Part shown: piece by piece, positions 4,613 through 8,640 of the stretch
Layout: every line of letters starts with the position of its first letter
How positions within the stretch are numbered: position 1 is the stretch's first letter
DNA from: Aridibaculum aurantiacum
GTDB lineage: Bacteria; Bacteroidota; Bacteroidia; Chitinophagales; Chitinophagaceae
Reading direction: 5' to 3'
Length of the DNA: 64,000 nt
Assembly (NCBI RefSeq): GCF_017355875.1
Contig: NZ_JAFEWC010000003.1
Span: 997,001 to 1,061,000 of the forward strand
Notes under the pieces: generated by a model
Databases searched by the model: none
What the model was told of the DNA's origin: nothing
What the model saw: the letters and a program-made list of their open reading frames with translations, nothing else
Position numbers and translations under genes: made by a program

Positions 4613-4831
4613 ATGTCTAAACAAGCACTGATAAAACAAGATGGGTCAATCATAGAAGCTTTGTCCAATGCAATGTTTCGGGTGAAGTTGGAAAATGGTC
4701 ATGAGATCATTGCCACCATCAGCGGTAAAATGAGAATGAATTACATACGAATTTTACCTGGCGACAAAGTAGGAGTAGAGATGAGCCCGTACGATTTGAG
4801 CCGTGGACGTATCATTTTCAGGTATAAATAG
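4613..4831 (+). CDS. infA: Translation initiation factor IF-1
   Basis: Full length at 72 residues and a single OB fold, matching bacterial IF-1 throughout (start [21 protein letters not shown]; middle [28 protein letters not shown] split over two conserved blocks). It binds the 30S A site during initiation. It is the first gene of the alpha ribosomal operon here. About 17 bases upstream of the ATG is TATCTTCG, a near match to a Bacteroidota minus-7 box, so infA may have its own promoter; no clear minus-33 box is visible at the proper spacing. Confidence 0.97.
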
Positions 4832-4838
4832 TAAACAA

Positions 4839-4880
4839 TTAGCTGTTAGCCTTTGATAGCCGATAGCAATAAGCATAAGG
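4839..4880 (+). repeat. Word-periodic inverted repeat in the infA-rpmJ spacer (TAGC word, 7-nt step)
   Basis: TAGC occurs at 4840, 4847, 4857 and 4864, then AAGC at 4871 and AAGG at 4878. The steps are 7, 10, 7, 7 and 7 nt. The first half (GCTGTTAGC, 4842-4850) can pair with the second (GCCGATAGC, 4859-4867) with two G-U pairs and one mismatch. It starts 8 bases after the infA stop codon. No run of T follows, so it is not an ordinary terminator. Confidence 0.6.
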
Positions 4881-4899
4881 AATTTTAATAACACACATC

Positions 4900-5016
4900 A
4901 TGAAAGTTAGAGCATCTATTAAAAAGCGTAGTGCAGATTGCAAGATCGTGAGAAGAAAAGGCAAGCTGTACATTGTAAACAAAAAGAACCCTCGCTACAA
5001 GCAGCGCCAGGGGTAA
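4900..5016 (+). CDS. rpmJ: 50S ribosomal protein L36
   Basis: A 38-residue protein beginning [17 protein letters not shown] and ending YKQRQG, the short zinc-ribbon protein of the large subunit. Only one metal-ligand cysteine is visible (C14). The usual C11-x2-C14-x12-C27-H32 set is replaced by S11 or another non-cysteine, N27 and Y33, so this is the zinc-independent (C-minus) type. Known: C-minus paralogues can function without zinc. Its position between infA and rpsM is the standard one. Confidence 0.95.
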
Positions 5017-5027
5017 GAAAGAATTGT

Positions 5028-5107
5028 GGGATTTCGGGATTTCGATATTTTGAGATTTCGATATCCGAAATACAATCCCAAAATCACCAAATCACAAAAT
5101 CAGAAAT
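5028..5107 (+). repeat. Word-periodic inverted repeat in the rpmJ-rpsM spacer (8-nt step)
   Basis: Five consecutive 8-nt units run from 5028 to 5067: GGGATTTC, GGGATTTC, GATATTTT, GAGATTTC, GATATCCG. The complementary arm (about 5068-5107) keeps the same 8-nt step with units such as TCCCAAAA, TCACCAAA, TCACAAAA and TCAGAAAT. The arms are imperfectly complementary, giving a long A/T-rich stem. It begins 12 bases after the rpmJ stop codon. There is no terminator-like T run. Confidence 0.75.
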
Positions 5108-5113
5108 TAAAAT

Positions 5114-5494
5114 ATGGCTCGTATTGCCGGTATAGATTTACCAAAAAGTAAAAGAGGCGAAATAGGTCTTACCTATATCTATGGTATAGGTCTTTCTACA
5201 GCCCAGTACATTCTTGACAAAGCTGGAATTGACCGTAGCAAGAAAGTGAACACCTGGAACGATGAAGAGCAAACTGCTATCCGTAATATCATCAACAATG
5301 AGATTAAGGTAGAAGGTGCACTTCGTAGCGAAACTCAAATGAACATTAAGCGTTTGTTGGATATCGCTTGTTACCGTGGTCTTCGTCATCGTAAAGGTTT
5401 ACCTCTTCGCGGACAAAGAACCCGTACTAACAGCCGTACCAGGAAAGGTAAGCGTAAGACAGTTGCCGGTAAAAAGAAGGCACCTAAGAAATAA
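5114..5494 (+). CDS. rpsM: 30S ribosomal protein S13
   Basis: 126 residues, full length. It begins [21 protein letters not shown] split over the conserved helix-two-turn-helix start, and contains the C-terminal RNA-binding motif [16 protein letters not shown] with the [11 protein letters not shown] tail. It contacts the head of the 30S subunit and the P-site tRNA. It lies in the standard position of the alpha operon, before rpsK. Confidence 0.97.
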
Positions 5495-5504
5495 TATAAC
5501 CATG

Positions 5505-5551
5505 TTACAAACTATAGGTTCCAGTGTATCATTGGAACCTGTAGTTTGTAA
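5505..5551 (+). repeat. 19-bp hairpin in the rpsM-rpsK spacer
   Basis: The arm TTACAAACTATAGGTTCCA (5505-5523) is complementary to 5533-5551, with a single T/C difference that still gives a G-U pair in RNA. The loop is 9 nt. It starts 11 bases after the rpsM stop codon. Downstream, TAGTTTG, TAATTTG, TTGTTTA continue a weak 7-nt step. It is not followed by a T run. Confidence 0.8.
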
Positions 5552-5566
5552 TTTGTTGTTTATACC

Positions 5567-5600
5567 AGTCGTCGGATCTGCTGCCTAGCAGGGAGAGACT
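5567..5600 (+). repeat. Nested hairpin in the leader of rpsK
   Basis: An inner stem CTGCT (5578-5582) / AGCAG (5587-5591) lies within an outer AGTC (5567-5570) / GACT (5597-5600). It ends 33 bases before the rpsK ATG. It is G+C richer than the other spacer repeats and could be a leader structure. Nothing in the sequence shows a ligand or a binding protein. Confidence 0.4.
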
Positions 5601-5633
5601 ATCATTTTTAGAAGATTACCTCAAAAAAAGAAA

Positions 5634-6041
5634 ATGGCTAAAAATCAAAGACAAGACAGCGCAAAAGCAGCTGCCAAGAAAAGAGTAGTGAAAGTGGACG
5701 CTTACGGCGACGCTCATATCAGCGCTACATTCAACAACATCATTATCTCTCTTACCAACAAGAATGGCCAGGTTATTAGCTGGGCTAGTGCTGGTAAAAT
5801 GGGATTCCGTGGTTCTAAAAAGAACACTCCTTACGCTGCACAGCTAGCTGCACAAGATTGCGCTAAAGTAGCTTTGGAAGCAGGATTGAAGAGAGTAGAC
5901 GTTTATGTAAAAGGTCCTGGTTCAGGTAGAGAAGGTGCTATCCGCGCTTTGGCTAACAGCGGTATCGAAGTAACCATGATCAAAGACGTTACCCCATTAC
6001 CTCACAACGGTTGTCGTCCTCCTAAGAAGAGAAGAGTATAA
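5634..6041 (+). CDS. rpsK: 30S ribosomal protein S11
   Basis: 135 residues, full length, with the family block [19 protein letters not shown], the [15 protein letters not shown] motif and the ending [18 protein letters not shown]. It forms part of the platform of the 30S subunit near the Shine-Dalgarno site. The N-terminal basic stretch ([15 protein letters not shown]) is typical. It lies between rpsM and rpsD as in other Bacteroidota. Confidence 0.97.
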
Positions 6042-6047
6042 TAAAGT

Positions 6048-6105
6048 AAAAAGTCAAAAATCAAAAGCAATAAATGGTTTTTGATTTTTGACTTTTAAGT
6101 TTTGA
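6048..6105 (+). repeat. Perfect 18-bp word-periodic hairpin in the rpsK-rpsD spacer
   Basis: AAAAGTCAAAAATCAAAA (6049-6066) pairs perfectly with 6079-6096 across a 12-nt loop. The word repeats every 7 nt (TC at 6054 and 6061; on the other arm GA at 6083 and 6090, AA at 6097, GA at 6104). It begins about 7 bases after the rpsK stop codon. It is A/T-only in the arms apart from the TC/GA positions. Confidence 0.85.
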
Positions 6106-6188
6106 ATTATCAAAAGCAGGTATAGGTCGCGTTTTAAGATTTTTGATGAACTATACCTGGAACTAAAAAATCTGAAAAAGAAACAAAC

Positions 6189-6794
6189 ATGGCAAGGTAC
6201 ACAGGTCCCAAGACCAAGATCTCAAGAATTTTTGGAGAGCCTATCTTAGGCAACGGTAAGTGGTTGAGCAAAAACAGCAACCCTCCGGGTATCCACGGTG
6301 CTCAGCGTAAGCGTAAGCAACTGGGTGAATACGCACTTCAGTTGAAAGAAAAGCAAAAAGCTAAGTACACTTATGGTTTGCTTGAAAAGCAATTCCGTAA
6401 CACTTTCACCGAAGCTGCACGTCGTAAAGGCGTAACTGGTGAAAACCTTATCAAACTTCTGGAAGCACGTTTAGATAACACTATCTTCCGTTTAGGTATT
6501 GCTCCTAGCCGTCCTGCTGCACGCCAGCTGGTTAGCCACAAGCACGTTACTGTAAATGGTGAAGTTGTAAACATTCCTTCTTTCCAATTAAAGCCAGGTG
6601 ATATCATCGGTCTTAAAGAAAAGAGCTCTGTTAACACTGCTGTTACAAGTGCTATCCGTGGTAAAAACCAAAAGTTCTCTTGGTTAGACTGGAACGAGGC
6701 TGAACTAAGAGGTACTTTTATAGCTTACCCTGAGCGTGAAAGTGTTCCTGAGAACATCAAGGAGCAACTGATCGTGGAATTGTACAGTAAGTAA
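6189..6794 (+). CDS. rpsD: 30S ribosomal protein S4
   Basis: 201 residues, the usual length. It has the N-terminal block (MARYTGPKTKISRIFGEP), the S4 RNA-binding domain (LEARLDNTIFRLGIAPSRPAARQLVSHKHV) and the C-terminal ending with KEQLIVELYSK. It is a primary 16S rRNA binder. In Escherichia coli S4 represses the alpha operon; whether it does so here cannot be read from the sequence. There is no cysteine cluster in the N-terminus, so this is the zinc-free form. Confidence 0.97.
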   Translation: MARYTGPKTKISRIFGEPILGNGKWLSKNSNPPGIHGAQRKRKQLGEYALQLKEKQKAKYTYGLLEKQFRNTFTEAARRKGVTGENLIKLLEARLDNTIFRLGIAPSRPAARQLVSHKHVTVNGEVVNIPSFQLKPGDIIGLKEKSSVNTAVTSAIRGKNQKFSWLDWNEAELRGTFIAYPERESVPENIKEQLIVELYSK

Positions 6795-6799
6795 TAGAA

Positions 6800-6887
6800 G
6801 TGAGTTGTGAATGGTGAGTAGTGAGCAATGAGTAAAGCTCTCATTCATATCACTCACAACTAACTACTCACAACTGACACTCACAAC
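6800..6887 (+). repeat. Word-periodic inverted repeat in the rpsD-rpoA spacer (GTGAG word, 7-nt step)
   Basis: Five 7-nt units follow one another from 6800 to 6834: GTGAGTT, GTGAATG, GTGAGTA, GTGAGCA, ATGAGTA. The opposite arm from 6852 has ACTCACA, ACTAACT, ACTCACA, ACTGACA, then a further CTCACAA shifted by one base. The arms are imperfectly complementary. It starts 6 bases after the rpsD stop. The word is unrelated to the words in the other spacers, but the step and layout are the same. Confidence 0.85.
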
Positions 6888-6915
6888 ATTTAAATCAACA
6901 AATCGTCAATAACAA

Positions 6916-7917
6916 ATGGCCATTTTAAATTTCCAAAAGCCCGATAAAATCGTTCTTCAGAAGGCAAACGACTTTGAAGCACAATTTGAATTCCGTCCAT
7001 TGGAGCCAGGTTACGGCCTGACCATTGGAAATGCTCTTCGCAGAGTATTACTTAGTTCATTGGAGGGTTACGCCATTGTAGGTATAAAAATCGAAGGTGC
7101 AGAGCATGAATTTGCTACCCTTCGTGGTGTTACAGAAGATGTAACTGAAATCATCCTGAACCTAAAGCAGGTGCGTTTCAAGAAGAAAGTAGAAGGCGAG
7201 GTTGGAACTGAAAGGATCACATTGAACATCAAGAATCAAACTGAATTTACAGCAGGTATGATTGGCGATGCTACACAGGGTTTTGAAGTAATGAACCCTC
7301 AATTGCTGATCTGTACTATGGATAACAGCTCTAAACTAGATATAGAGATCACTATTGCTAAAGGTCGTGGATACGTTCCGGCTGAAGACAATCGTGTGAA
7401 AGATTCAGTTTTCGGGTATATTCCTATTGATAGTATTCATACTCCGATCAAGAATGTAAAGTACAGCATCGAGAACACTCGTGTTGAACAAAGAACCGAC
7501 TTCGAAAAACTGTTGATGGACGTTCAGACAGATGGTACCATCCATCCTGAGGAAGCTGTTAAACAAGCTTCTCGTATCCTGATCCAGCACCTGATGATCA
7601 TCACTGATGAGAACATCACTTTCGACAACAAAGAAGAGAAGAAAGAAGACCTGGTAGACGAGCAAACACTGCAACTGCGCAAGATCCTGAAGACTCCATT
7701 GGAAGATCTTGACCTGAGCGTACGTGCATTTAACTGTTTGAAAGCTGCTAAGATCAATAGCCTGAGCGAACTGGTACAATACGAGCAGGAAGACCTTATG
7801 AAATTCAGAAACTTCGGTCAGAAATCACTTTCTGAGATCGAGCAAGTACTGAACGAAAGAGGCCTTGGCTTCGGAATGGATCTGAGCAAAATGGGTATAG
7901 ATAAGGAAGATTATTAA
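6916..7917 (+). CDS. rpoA: DNA-directed RNA polymerase subunit alpha
   Basis: 333 residues. The N-terminal domain (about 1-235) holds the dimerisation and assembly motif GNALRRVLLSSLEGYAI, and the C-terminal domain (about 255-325) holds the DNA- and activator-contacting helices (LSVRAFNCLKAAKINSLSEL; RNFGQKSLSEIEQVL). The acidic linker (NKEEKKEDLVDEQ) joins them. It scaffolds polymerase assembly. It sits in the alpha operon before rplQ. Confidence 0.98.
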   Translation: MAILNFQKPDKIVLQKANDFEAQFEFRPLEPGYGLTIGNALRRVLLSSLEGYAIVGIKIEGAEHEFATLRGVTEDVTEIILNLKQVRFKKKVEGEVGTERITLNIKNQTEFTAGMIGDATQGFEVMNPQLLICTMDNSSKLDIEITIAKGRGYVPAEDNRVKDSVFGYIPIDSIHTPIKNVKYSIENTRVEQRTDFEKLLMDVQTDGTIHPEEAVKQASRILIQHLMIITDENITFDNKEEKKEDLVDEQTLQLRKILKTPLEDLDLSVRAFNCLKAAKINSLSELVQYEQEDLMKFRNFGQKSLSEIEQVLNERGLGFGMDLSKMGIDKEDY

Positions 7918-7918
7918 A

Positions 7919-7987
7919 TCAAAAGTCAAAATTCAAAAGTCAAAAAAGGACCTTCTCAGGTTTTTAATTTTGACTTTTGAATTTTGA
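7919..7987 (+). repeat. Perfect 20-bp word-periodic hairpin in the rpoA-rplQ spacer
   Basis: TCAAAATTCAAAAGTCAAAA (7926-7945) pairs perfectly with 7968-7987. TC recurs at exactly 7-nt steps (7919, 7926, 7933, 7940), and on the other arm GA at 7972, 7979 and 7986. The apex contains ACCT-TCTC-AGGT, which extends the stem. The repeat begins 2 bases after the rpoA stop codon. No T run follows the stem. Confidence 0.88.
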
Positions 7988-8038
7988 ATTCACAAGGGTT
8001 GTAATTCCTGACACGGTACAACCTATAAAACACACGTC

Positions 8039-8581
8039 ATGCGTCACGGAGACAAAATCAACAATTTAGGCCGCACAGCGAGCCACCGCAAAGCGTTGCT
8101 TAGCAACCTTGCATCTCAACTGATCGCTCACAAGCGTATCACTACTACATTGGCAAAAGCTAAAGCTTTGCGTACTTATGTAGAGCCACTGATAACTAAA
8201 GCAAAAGAAAACAGCACGCACCAGCGTCGTATCGTTTTCAGCTACCTGCAAGACAAAGAATCAATCAAAGAACTTTTTGATGTGATCCGTCCAAAGGTTG
8301 AAGCTCGTCCAGGTGGTTACACTCGTATCATCAAGTTGGGTGCTCGTCATGGTGACAACGCTGAACTGGCAATGATTGAACTAGTTGACTACAACGAAGT
8401 TTACGGAAAAGGTGTTGGTGAAACTAAAGAGCCTGCTAAGCGTACACGTCGTGCTGGTGGTGGTCGTAAAAAAGCTGCAACTGCAGCTGAAGGTACTACT
8501 ACACCTGCTTCTGATGCTGAAGCAACAGCTCCTGCTACTGAAACCACAGAAACTTCAGAAGAAAATAAAGCTGCTGAGTAA
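8039..8581 (+). CDS. rplQ: 50S ribosomal protein L17 with long C-terminal tail
   Basis: The first 120 residues are a standard L17 ([20 protein letters not shown] start; [28 protein letters not shown] split over the conserved core). The remaining 60 residues are a low-complexity Ala/Thr/Glu tail preceded by a basic patch ([14 protein letters not shown]). Similar tails occur on L17 in other Bacteroidota. It ends the ribosomal operon, and a strong terminator follows. Confidence 0.96.
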
Positions 8582-8602: not shown

Positions 8603-8640
8603 AAAAAGGCAAGGTCGTAATGATCTTGCCTTTTTTGTTT
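8603..8640 (+). terminator. Rho-independent terminator after rplQ
   Basis: The stem AAAAAGGCAAGGTC (8603-8616) pairs with GATCTTGCCTTTTT (from 8622) around a 5-nt loop and is followed by TTTTTGTTTTT. It closes the alpha operon and separates it from carA, unlike the spacer hairpins upstream, which lack a T run. Confidence 0.9.

Follow-up and report, generated by a model that had tools for sequence, protein, structure and literature searches.

Inverted repeats in the spacers of the alpha operon

The alpha ribosomal-protein operon of Aridibaculum aurantiacum lies within a stretch of 64,000 nucleotides (nt), hereafter the window, which covers positions 997001-1061000 of the 4.86-Mb genome and in whose own numbering all features are given. 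The operon consists of infA (4613-4831), rpmJ (4900-5016), rpsM (5114-5494), rpsK (5634-6041), rpsD (6189-6794), rpoA (6916-7917) and rplQ (8039-8581); S13 was identified by Pfam and the other genes by sequence and gene order. RpoA of the window is 92-95% identical to that of the nearest six loci (L002-L007), five of them titled Segetibacter and one Chitinophagaceae bacterium. Most of the six spacers between these genes contain short words repeated every 7 or 8 nt and paired with a second, inverted arm in the same spacer. We describe these arrays here, together with their distribution in the genome and the way in which they may have arisen.

A preliminary description had credited all six spacers with an inverted repeat starting 2-12 bases after the stop codon, and five of them with a word recurring at a 7- or 8-nt step. 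We scored each spacer for inverted repeats and for periodicity (best of lags 4-14) against 500 dinucleotide-preserving shuffles, with rpmJ bounded at 4900-5016; in the window-wide lag scan, the genome sample and the arm coordinates rpmJ was placed 1 base too far to the right, which puts two spacer ends off by 1 base. Five of the six spacers exceed chance for the inverted repeat, and five for a 7- or 8-nt step. The count of five periodic spacers therefore stands, with a change of membership, infA-rpmJ dropping out and rpsM-rpsK entering weakly. In all five spacers with a significant inverted repeat the 5′ arm begins after 7-13 nt behind the stop codon.

A fully paired hairpin is found between rpoA and rplQ (spacer 7918-8038), where TCAAAAG heptads at 7926-7945 (+ strand, as are all features below) pair at 20 of 20 positions with 7968-7987 across a 22-nt loop, and where no shuffle reached either score. 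This is the longest perfect arm, in agreement with the maximum of 20 bp reported at first. AAAAGTC heptads form the 5′ arm in the rpsK-rpsD spacer (6042-6188), all 18 positions of 6049-6066 pairing with 6079-6096 over a loop of 12 nt (0/500 shuffles for the inverted repeat, 7/500 for periodicity). GTGAGTA heptads at 6803-6825 in the rpsD-rpoA spacer (6795-6915) are 83% complementary to 6853-6875, with a loop of 27 nt (0/500 and 1/500). In the rpmJ-rpsM spacer (5017-5113) an array of GATTTCGG-type octads at 5030-5057 faces AATCACAA octads at 5074-5101, 79% complementary to it across 16 nt; its inverted repeat was reached by 19/500 shuffles and its periodicity, at lag 8, by 1/500. The rpsM-rpsK spacer (5495-5633) combines a strong inverted repeat (5505-5523 with 5533-5551, 95% complementary, loop 9 nt; 0/500) with a weak heptad step (lag 7; 18/500). 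In the infA-rpmJ spacer (4832-4899) 445/500 shuffles reached the inverted repeat and 113/500 the best lag (10/500 for lag 7 alone), so that it passes neither test; its TAGC words (4840-4867) are weak and not significant alone, and are also present in the orthologous spacers of L004, L005 and L006.

Elsewhere in the window none of the 49 other spacers reached p 0.05 for lag (60 shuffles each), which bears out the earlier remark that the window holds no comparable array. Such arrays do occur outside it, in a wider sample of the genome and in the atp, nuo and other ribosomal-protein operons.

Distribution and grammar of the arrays

The genome sample comprised 764 kb (the window and 35 further stretches) with 486 spacers of 25-600 nt, of which the 350 of 60-300 nt were analysed; genes were called by a simple codon-usage caller rather than a standard annotator, and some starts, for example that of rplP, are misplaced. 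By scoring for a positive signal at lag 7, 8 or 14 we found 16 of 21 ribosomal-protein spacers (S10-spc, alpha and L11) to be lag-positive compared to 19 of 222 other co-directional spacers (p 1e-11). Convergent spacers were positive in 6/45 cases and divergent ones in 1/62, and in a further count covering the S10-spc loci of relatives no divergent spacer was positive (0/28). Lag signal and inverted repeat occur together in 12/21 ribosomal-protein spacers versus 4/222 other co-directional ones, and in at least two of these four the inverted repeat is not built of heptads. The lag-positive ribosomal-protein spacers also fold more strongly, with a fold z-score of −3 or below in 10/16 compared to 4/19 of the other lag-positive co-directional spacers.

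We inspected further loci of the same genome (atp, nuo, rplM-rpsI-rpsB-tsf and rpsF-rpsR-rplI; internal spacers from 40 nt upwards, which measured 70-303 nt) to distinguish a feature specific to ribosomal-protein genes from one common to the operons of large complexes. Lag-positive spacers numbered 3/3 in atp, 7/10 in nuo, 2/2 in rplM-rpsI-rpsB-tsf and 1/1 in rpsF-rpsR-rplI, that is 13 of 16 (p 2e-10 against the 19/222). When nuo was recounted under different spacer limits with new shuffles, 4/8 were positive, which lowers the total to 10/14 (p 1e-7). In the first count an inverted repeat at p ≤ 0.05 was present in nine of the 16 spacers, and eight of these nine belong to the 13 that are lag-positive. 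Since the atp and nuo operons carry arrays too, a function specific to ribosomal-protein genes is unsupported, and what had been presented as a property of the alpha operon is shared by the S10-spc, rplM-tsf, rpsF-rplI, atp and nuo operons. The arrays are thus concentrated in operon-internal spacers of this genome. Operons for ribosomal proteins, ATP synthase and complex I are presumably highly expressed. In locus L196 (6180-7011) the interval from nuoE to nuoF contains two small unrelated open reading frames and a heptad hairpin ahead of nuoF.

For a census of the arrays themselves we pooled 1907 spacers of 40-500 nt from our own genome and from family, genus, order, class and phylum loci. 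Arrays with a step of 7 or 8 numbered 354, compared to 16 in one shuffle of each spacer. In the alpha spacers of relatives (the best 80 of 565) the lag excess is 0.075 at 7, 0.0375 at 8, 0.032 at 14 and 0.023 at 6, with values near zero or below it at lags 9-13. In the remaining spacers of these 80 loci it is 0.022 at 7 and 0.016 at 8, and S10-spc spacers of 20 relatives likewise show an excess at 7, 8 and 14, slightly at 6 and hardly at all at 9-13. The words vary: 257 period-7 arrays contain 154 distinct heptads, compared to 205 in a letter-shuffled null. Favoured words include the heptad AAAAGTC, seen 14 times, and an octad, CAAATTTT, with 27 occurrences spread over 16 loci. Where a co-directional spacer holds at least two arrays (n = 107), the last is the inverted form of the first in 70 cases, a direct copy in four and unrelated in 33.

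The arrays also have a polarity. Scored on the sense strand as G-rich:C-rich, those nearer a stop codon are 147:51 and those nearer a start codon 21:109, with 26 of the 354 arrays omitted as lacking skew; in our own genome the ratios are 37:4 and 2:17. Among 79 spacers with both lag signal and inverted repeat (own ribosomal-protein, family S10-spc, and alpha spacers of the 80 loci) the 5′ arm is G-rich in 60, C-rich in 10 and even in nine, compared to 73 G-rich and 57 C-rich 5′ arms among inverted repeats without periodicity (five sets). Arrays ahead of starts contain ATG seven times, versus 29 in the same strings reversed. As a separate observation, post-stop arrays of the pooled loci contain more ATG than their reversals (159 versus 94).

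Origin, turnover and possible roles

We suggest, with a probability of about 0.6, that the degenerate 7/8-nt arrays come from slippage and that inverted copies of them arise in the same spacer, giving transcribed hairpins in operon-internal spacers. Replication slippage with a 7-nt, less often 8-nt, step would seed and extend arrays in untranslated spacers. The second array would be an inverted copy of the first, and its likeliest source is template switching where the hairpin forms. Inverted second arrays are far commoner than direct ones, which argues for copying across the hairpin rather than independent slippage. Such a process would be active throughout the lineage; in this genome its products would accumulate inside conserved, presumably highly expressed operons, whose internal spacers may be permissive because there is no promoter or terminator to keep there. 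The transcripts would then carry hairpins that start roughly 10 nt behind the stop codon. Which arrays survive, and on which strand, probably depends on selection: arrays are rare in divergent (promoter) spacers, G-rich on the sense strand after stops, and C-rich and ATG-poor before starts. The polarity is consistent with selection against G-rich sequence containing ATG ahead of starts; no cause is demonstrated for the richness in G after stops. Slippage with hairpin correction had been raised in the preliminary description as a shared generating process, and it is the best fit to the step, the word variety and the inverted second arrays. What the data establish is the step, the inverted pairing, the pooled polarity, the enrichment that this genome shows in such operons and the turnover of words; the events themselves, like transcription, operon structure and expression level, are what we infer. 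Published studies report that template switching makes and mends RNA hairpins (PMC8794818) and that, in a yeast assay, such events depended on high transcription (PMC3820800).

Several results weigh against this explanation. No slippage or template-switch event was observed. The arms match just slightly better in register than when shifted by one unit; this register test is weakly positive, and with so small an advantage copying of the arms beyond the heptad itself is unproved. The polarity is not significant alone in the six genus loci (4:1 and 4:11; p 0.11) or in the ten class loci (4:1 and 1:4; p 0.21), the 5′ arm is G-rich in two and C-rich in three of the window's own five hairpins, and the nuo hairpins are nearly balanced (5 G-rich, 4 C-rich). 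With a second detector, three arrays came to light in this genome's divergent spacers. Moreover, enrichment across the family was not significant, whether in ribosomal-protein spacers (58/276 lag-positive versus 16/111 co-directional controls, p 0.15) or in nuo spacers of 20 relatives (27/140 against the same controls, p 0.40), and the genomes compared are related, hence not independent. The concentration in operons is therefore demonstrated for this genome alone.

In the S10-spc region each of 20 Chitinophagaceae has 10-18 spacers of 40-300 nt, compared to 0-5 in 16 and 9-18 in four of 20 genomes of other families. Lag-positive S10-spc spacers number 0/21 in the order set, 8/35 in the class set and 5/43 in the phylum set, beside the family figure already given. 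Dense loading with arrays thus characterises this genome, in a lineage with a general tendency towards them.

The foremost alternative is that the stems are selected RNA elements, insulating or stabilising each cistron or recruiting a double-strand-specific nuclease; conservation would then extend only to the stem, the step and the position. The placement of the 5′ arms behind the stop codon and the strong folding of lag-positive ribosomal-protein spacers speak for it, as does a fold z-score of −2 or below in 150/276 family S10-spc spacers versus 34/111 controls (p 3e-5), an excess that stems in part from the separate conserved leaders described below. At rpsS-rplV the words are of the GTTTAAAG type in our own genome, L187 and L189 and of the GTTAC type in L188, L190 and L191; even with words replaced, the spacer reaches a fold z-score of −2 or below in five of six congeners. 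Genus alignments contain 61 compensatory double changes compared to 30.8 expected after partner shuffling, twofold, which we count as weak because the pairwise alignments, though filtered for coverage and identity, are gappy and the count includes the leaders. Orthologs of our own ribosomal-protein spacers (eight shorter than 40 nt left out) fold in 62/110 cases and hold an array in 43/110, leaving 48 without fold and 67 without array, and genus nuo spacers are lag-positive in 3/29 and fold in just 5/29. An inverted repeat with periodicity recurs at rpsD-rpoA in 6/77 relatives and at infA-rpmJ in 0/24, which lends no support to a hairpin conserved family-wide at each alpha spacer. Word changes between sister species, together with the fewer arrays in congeners and family, leave a conserved function unproven, and we regard selection for the stems as possible but tentative. 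The post-stop hairpin role proposed at the outset is compatible with placement and folding, and function is not demonstrated by conservation in relatives. Under slippage and inverted copying, too, the hairpins may serve as cistron boundaries, for instance by protecting 3′ ends or in the processing of individual cistrons; the conservation observed does not call for such a role.

A more far-reaching version, which we consider doubtful, is that the hairpins form a class defined by grammar and not by sequence, with a 7/8-nt step, a G-rich post-stop arm, a complementary C-rich pre-start arm and words continually rebuilt by slippage and template switching, separating the genes of large-complex operons.

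Three other explanations are very unlikely. One is that the arrays are binding sites for a repeat-binding regulator, with incidental pairing: intergenic heptamer arrays are known from several phyla, and for TAACTGA repeats 5′ of start codons a binding role has been proposed (PMC4679880). The arrays here lack a common word, 257 of them containing 154 distinct heptads, and sister species differ in their words, which argues against a protein site, expected to keep its word. An equally weak case can be made for a mobile family of palindromes (REP/BIME-like) with copies inserted behind stop codons: small intergenic palindromes near genes and the recurrence of the octad CAAATTTT would suit it, but spacers of one genome have no sequence in common (a linked transposase was not searched for) and 15 of 19 lag-positive co-directional spacers outside these operons do not fold strongly, with z above −3. 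Nor do we give much credence to intrinsic terminators or attenuators inside the operon. A loose terminator scan of the window yielded six sites compared to 3.3 expected, among them the rpsM-rpsK stem (5505-5551) with its T-rich tail TTTGTTGTTT and a stem 3′ of rplQ (8603-8635), but the other four significant stems were not flagged as G+C-containing stems followed by a T run; the earlier statement that no stem precedes a T run thus survives with rpsM-rpsK as a borderline exception.

The idea that arrays behind stop codons provide spare stops in every frame, since a step that is no multiple of three shifts the frame, can be dismissed: many G-type words hold TAA, TAG or TGA by eye, but stops number 641 versus 672 in the same arrays reversed, and stops in all frames occur in 84 versus 105 of 208 arrays, contradicting it. 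A preference for three-letter words unable to self-fold finds little support: words that use G alone or C alone, but not both, number 59/121 with two G/C columns (60.5 expected), 29/81 with three (20.2) and 8/46 with four (5.8).

Known heptameric repeats and other elements of the spacers

Degenerate heptanucleotide repeats in the P6b stem-loop of the cyanobacterial tRNA-Leu(UAA) intron were reportedly described by Costa et al. in 2002. Comparisons with published systems here draw on portions of the papers cited. The P6b element (PMC3488679) resembles our arrays in that degenerate 7-nt units pair into a hairpin, length varies by unit copies and several word classes exist. We likewise find degenerate tandem 7-nt units, lag 7 dominating over a minority at 8, and pairing of inverted arms. 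P6b occupies one intron site with two word classes, whereas the present arrays occur in many spacers with many words, inside operons and adjoining stop codons, and not at a tRNA-Leu intron with class 1 or 2 words. Given the gene-spacer site and the many words, they resemble P6b in working without being a member.

Direct TAACTGA repeats are known from Beggiatoaceae, Cyanobacteria and five Bacteroidetes (MacGregor 2015, PMC4679880). They too are heptamer arrays between genes, accompanied in some genomes by other heptamers and differing between strains by 7-nt indels, but have a single defining word, are nearly always direct and in the main genome lie mostly just 5′ of start codons. We did not see TAACTGA by eye in the alpha spacers, and it is absent from the 28 commonest heptads listed. 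Heptameric simple sequence repeats of the GGGAATC type in Xanthomonas and Nostoc (PMC4692102; heptameric repeats also in Mrazek 2007, cited there and in PMC4679880) share the step of 7, a mainly intergenic location near a neighbouring gene and slippage as proposed origin. They differ as one G-rich word family in tandem, inverted pairs not being mentioned in the portion of PMC4692102 drawn on. Tandem 7-nt arrays beyond chance are what we find in the intergenic sequence examined, and the hairpin arrays belong broadly with these bacterial heptameric repeats.

REP/BIME sequences (PMC3733652) are short extragenic palindromes as well, some of which supply the neighbour's stop codon and for which mRNA-stability roles have been proposed. 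They are high-copy and share GTAG or CGTC tags, whereas the present hairpins have tandem internal structure and no common sequence, with as many words as reported above; tags and transposase were not searched for. Ribosomal-protein leaders (PMC7247131) are similar in that elements of their sort sit in the same spacers, but they are conserved, covarying and next to the downstream start, and the heptad hairpins are distinct from them. Among the top matches in the open-licence literature there was no description of inverted heptad pairs in Bacteroidota operons. Short repeats of this sort are known in bacteria; their arrangement in pairs within operons seems to be a variant not yet described, of unproven purpose.

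Earlier descriptions of heptamer repeats in bacterial spacers do not explain the choice of seven, the location or the purpose. Inverted pairs in ribosomal-protein, ATP-synthase and complex-I operons, together with the pooled polarity and the turnover of words, open the generating process to direct testing. The arrays would be an example from nature of replication errors giving rise to RNA hairpins and, if the hairpins act, a sequence-free punctuation of operons.

Two conserved, strongly covarying stem-loops share the alpha spacers with the heptad hairpins and are separate from them, each lying towards the 3′ end of its spacer. The first, at 6117-6159 in the rpsK-rpsD spacer, is 90.9% paired across 78 loci, with 209 double-changed cells in 75 distinct rows, compared to 33-44% and 33-52 cells in slid controls. 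Its possible pseudoknot partner pairs at 75.9%, versus 74.3% when slid by one. S4 leaders 5′ of rpsD have been published for Bacteroidia and Flavobacteria, with hairpins unlike each other (PMC7247131), and we regard the pre-rpsD stem-loop as a candidate S4 autoregulatory leader. Neither this stem nor any other part of the eight sequences scanned (the window and the loci of seven relatives) matched Rfam at gathering thresholds. The second stem-loop, GGTTGTAATTCCTGACACGGTACAACC at 7997-8023 in the rpoA-rplQ spacer, is 90.8% paired across 71 loci, compared to 16.8-55.2% in slid controls, and has 87 double-changed cells over 69 distinct rows, compared to 6-18 in these controls.

Recurring motifs ahead of genes were also seen at 5571-5633 of the window and, in L099, L128-L147 and L187-L192, before rplR, rpsS, rplO, rpsH and rplF; examples are TTCCCGGCAGTATCGGGAA 5′ of rplR, GCGAGGGGAATTAACCCCGT 5′ of rplO and a Shine-Dalgarno-like AGGAGG 5′ of rpsH. 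Ribosomal-protein genes of Chitinophagaceae may have individual leaders. A dispersed element around GTACAAGAGTGCGACGCAACGATG occurs in many spacers, sometimes on the other strand (rpsD-rpoA of L002, L005, L006, L007 and L012; rpsK-rpsD of L018; rpmD-rplO of L099; nuoH-nuoI of L196). Another paired element has CCCCTAAAGGGG-type sequence at the 5′ side of the spacer and CCCCTTTAGGGG-type sequence at the 3′ side (L012, L188, L189, L203 and L215). Finally, in two genus genomes (L188 and L189) four consecutive spacers from rplE to rplR are identical or nearly so while their other spacers differ, which suggests contamination, mis-binning or recent transfer.

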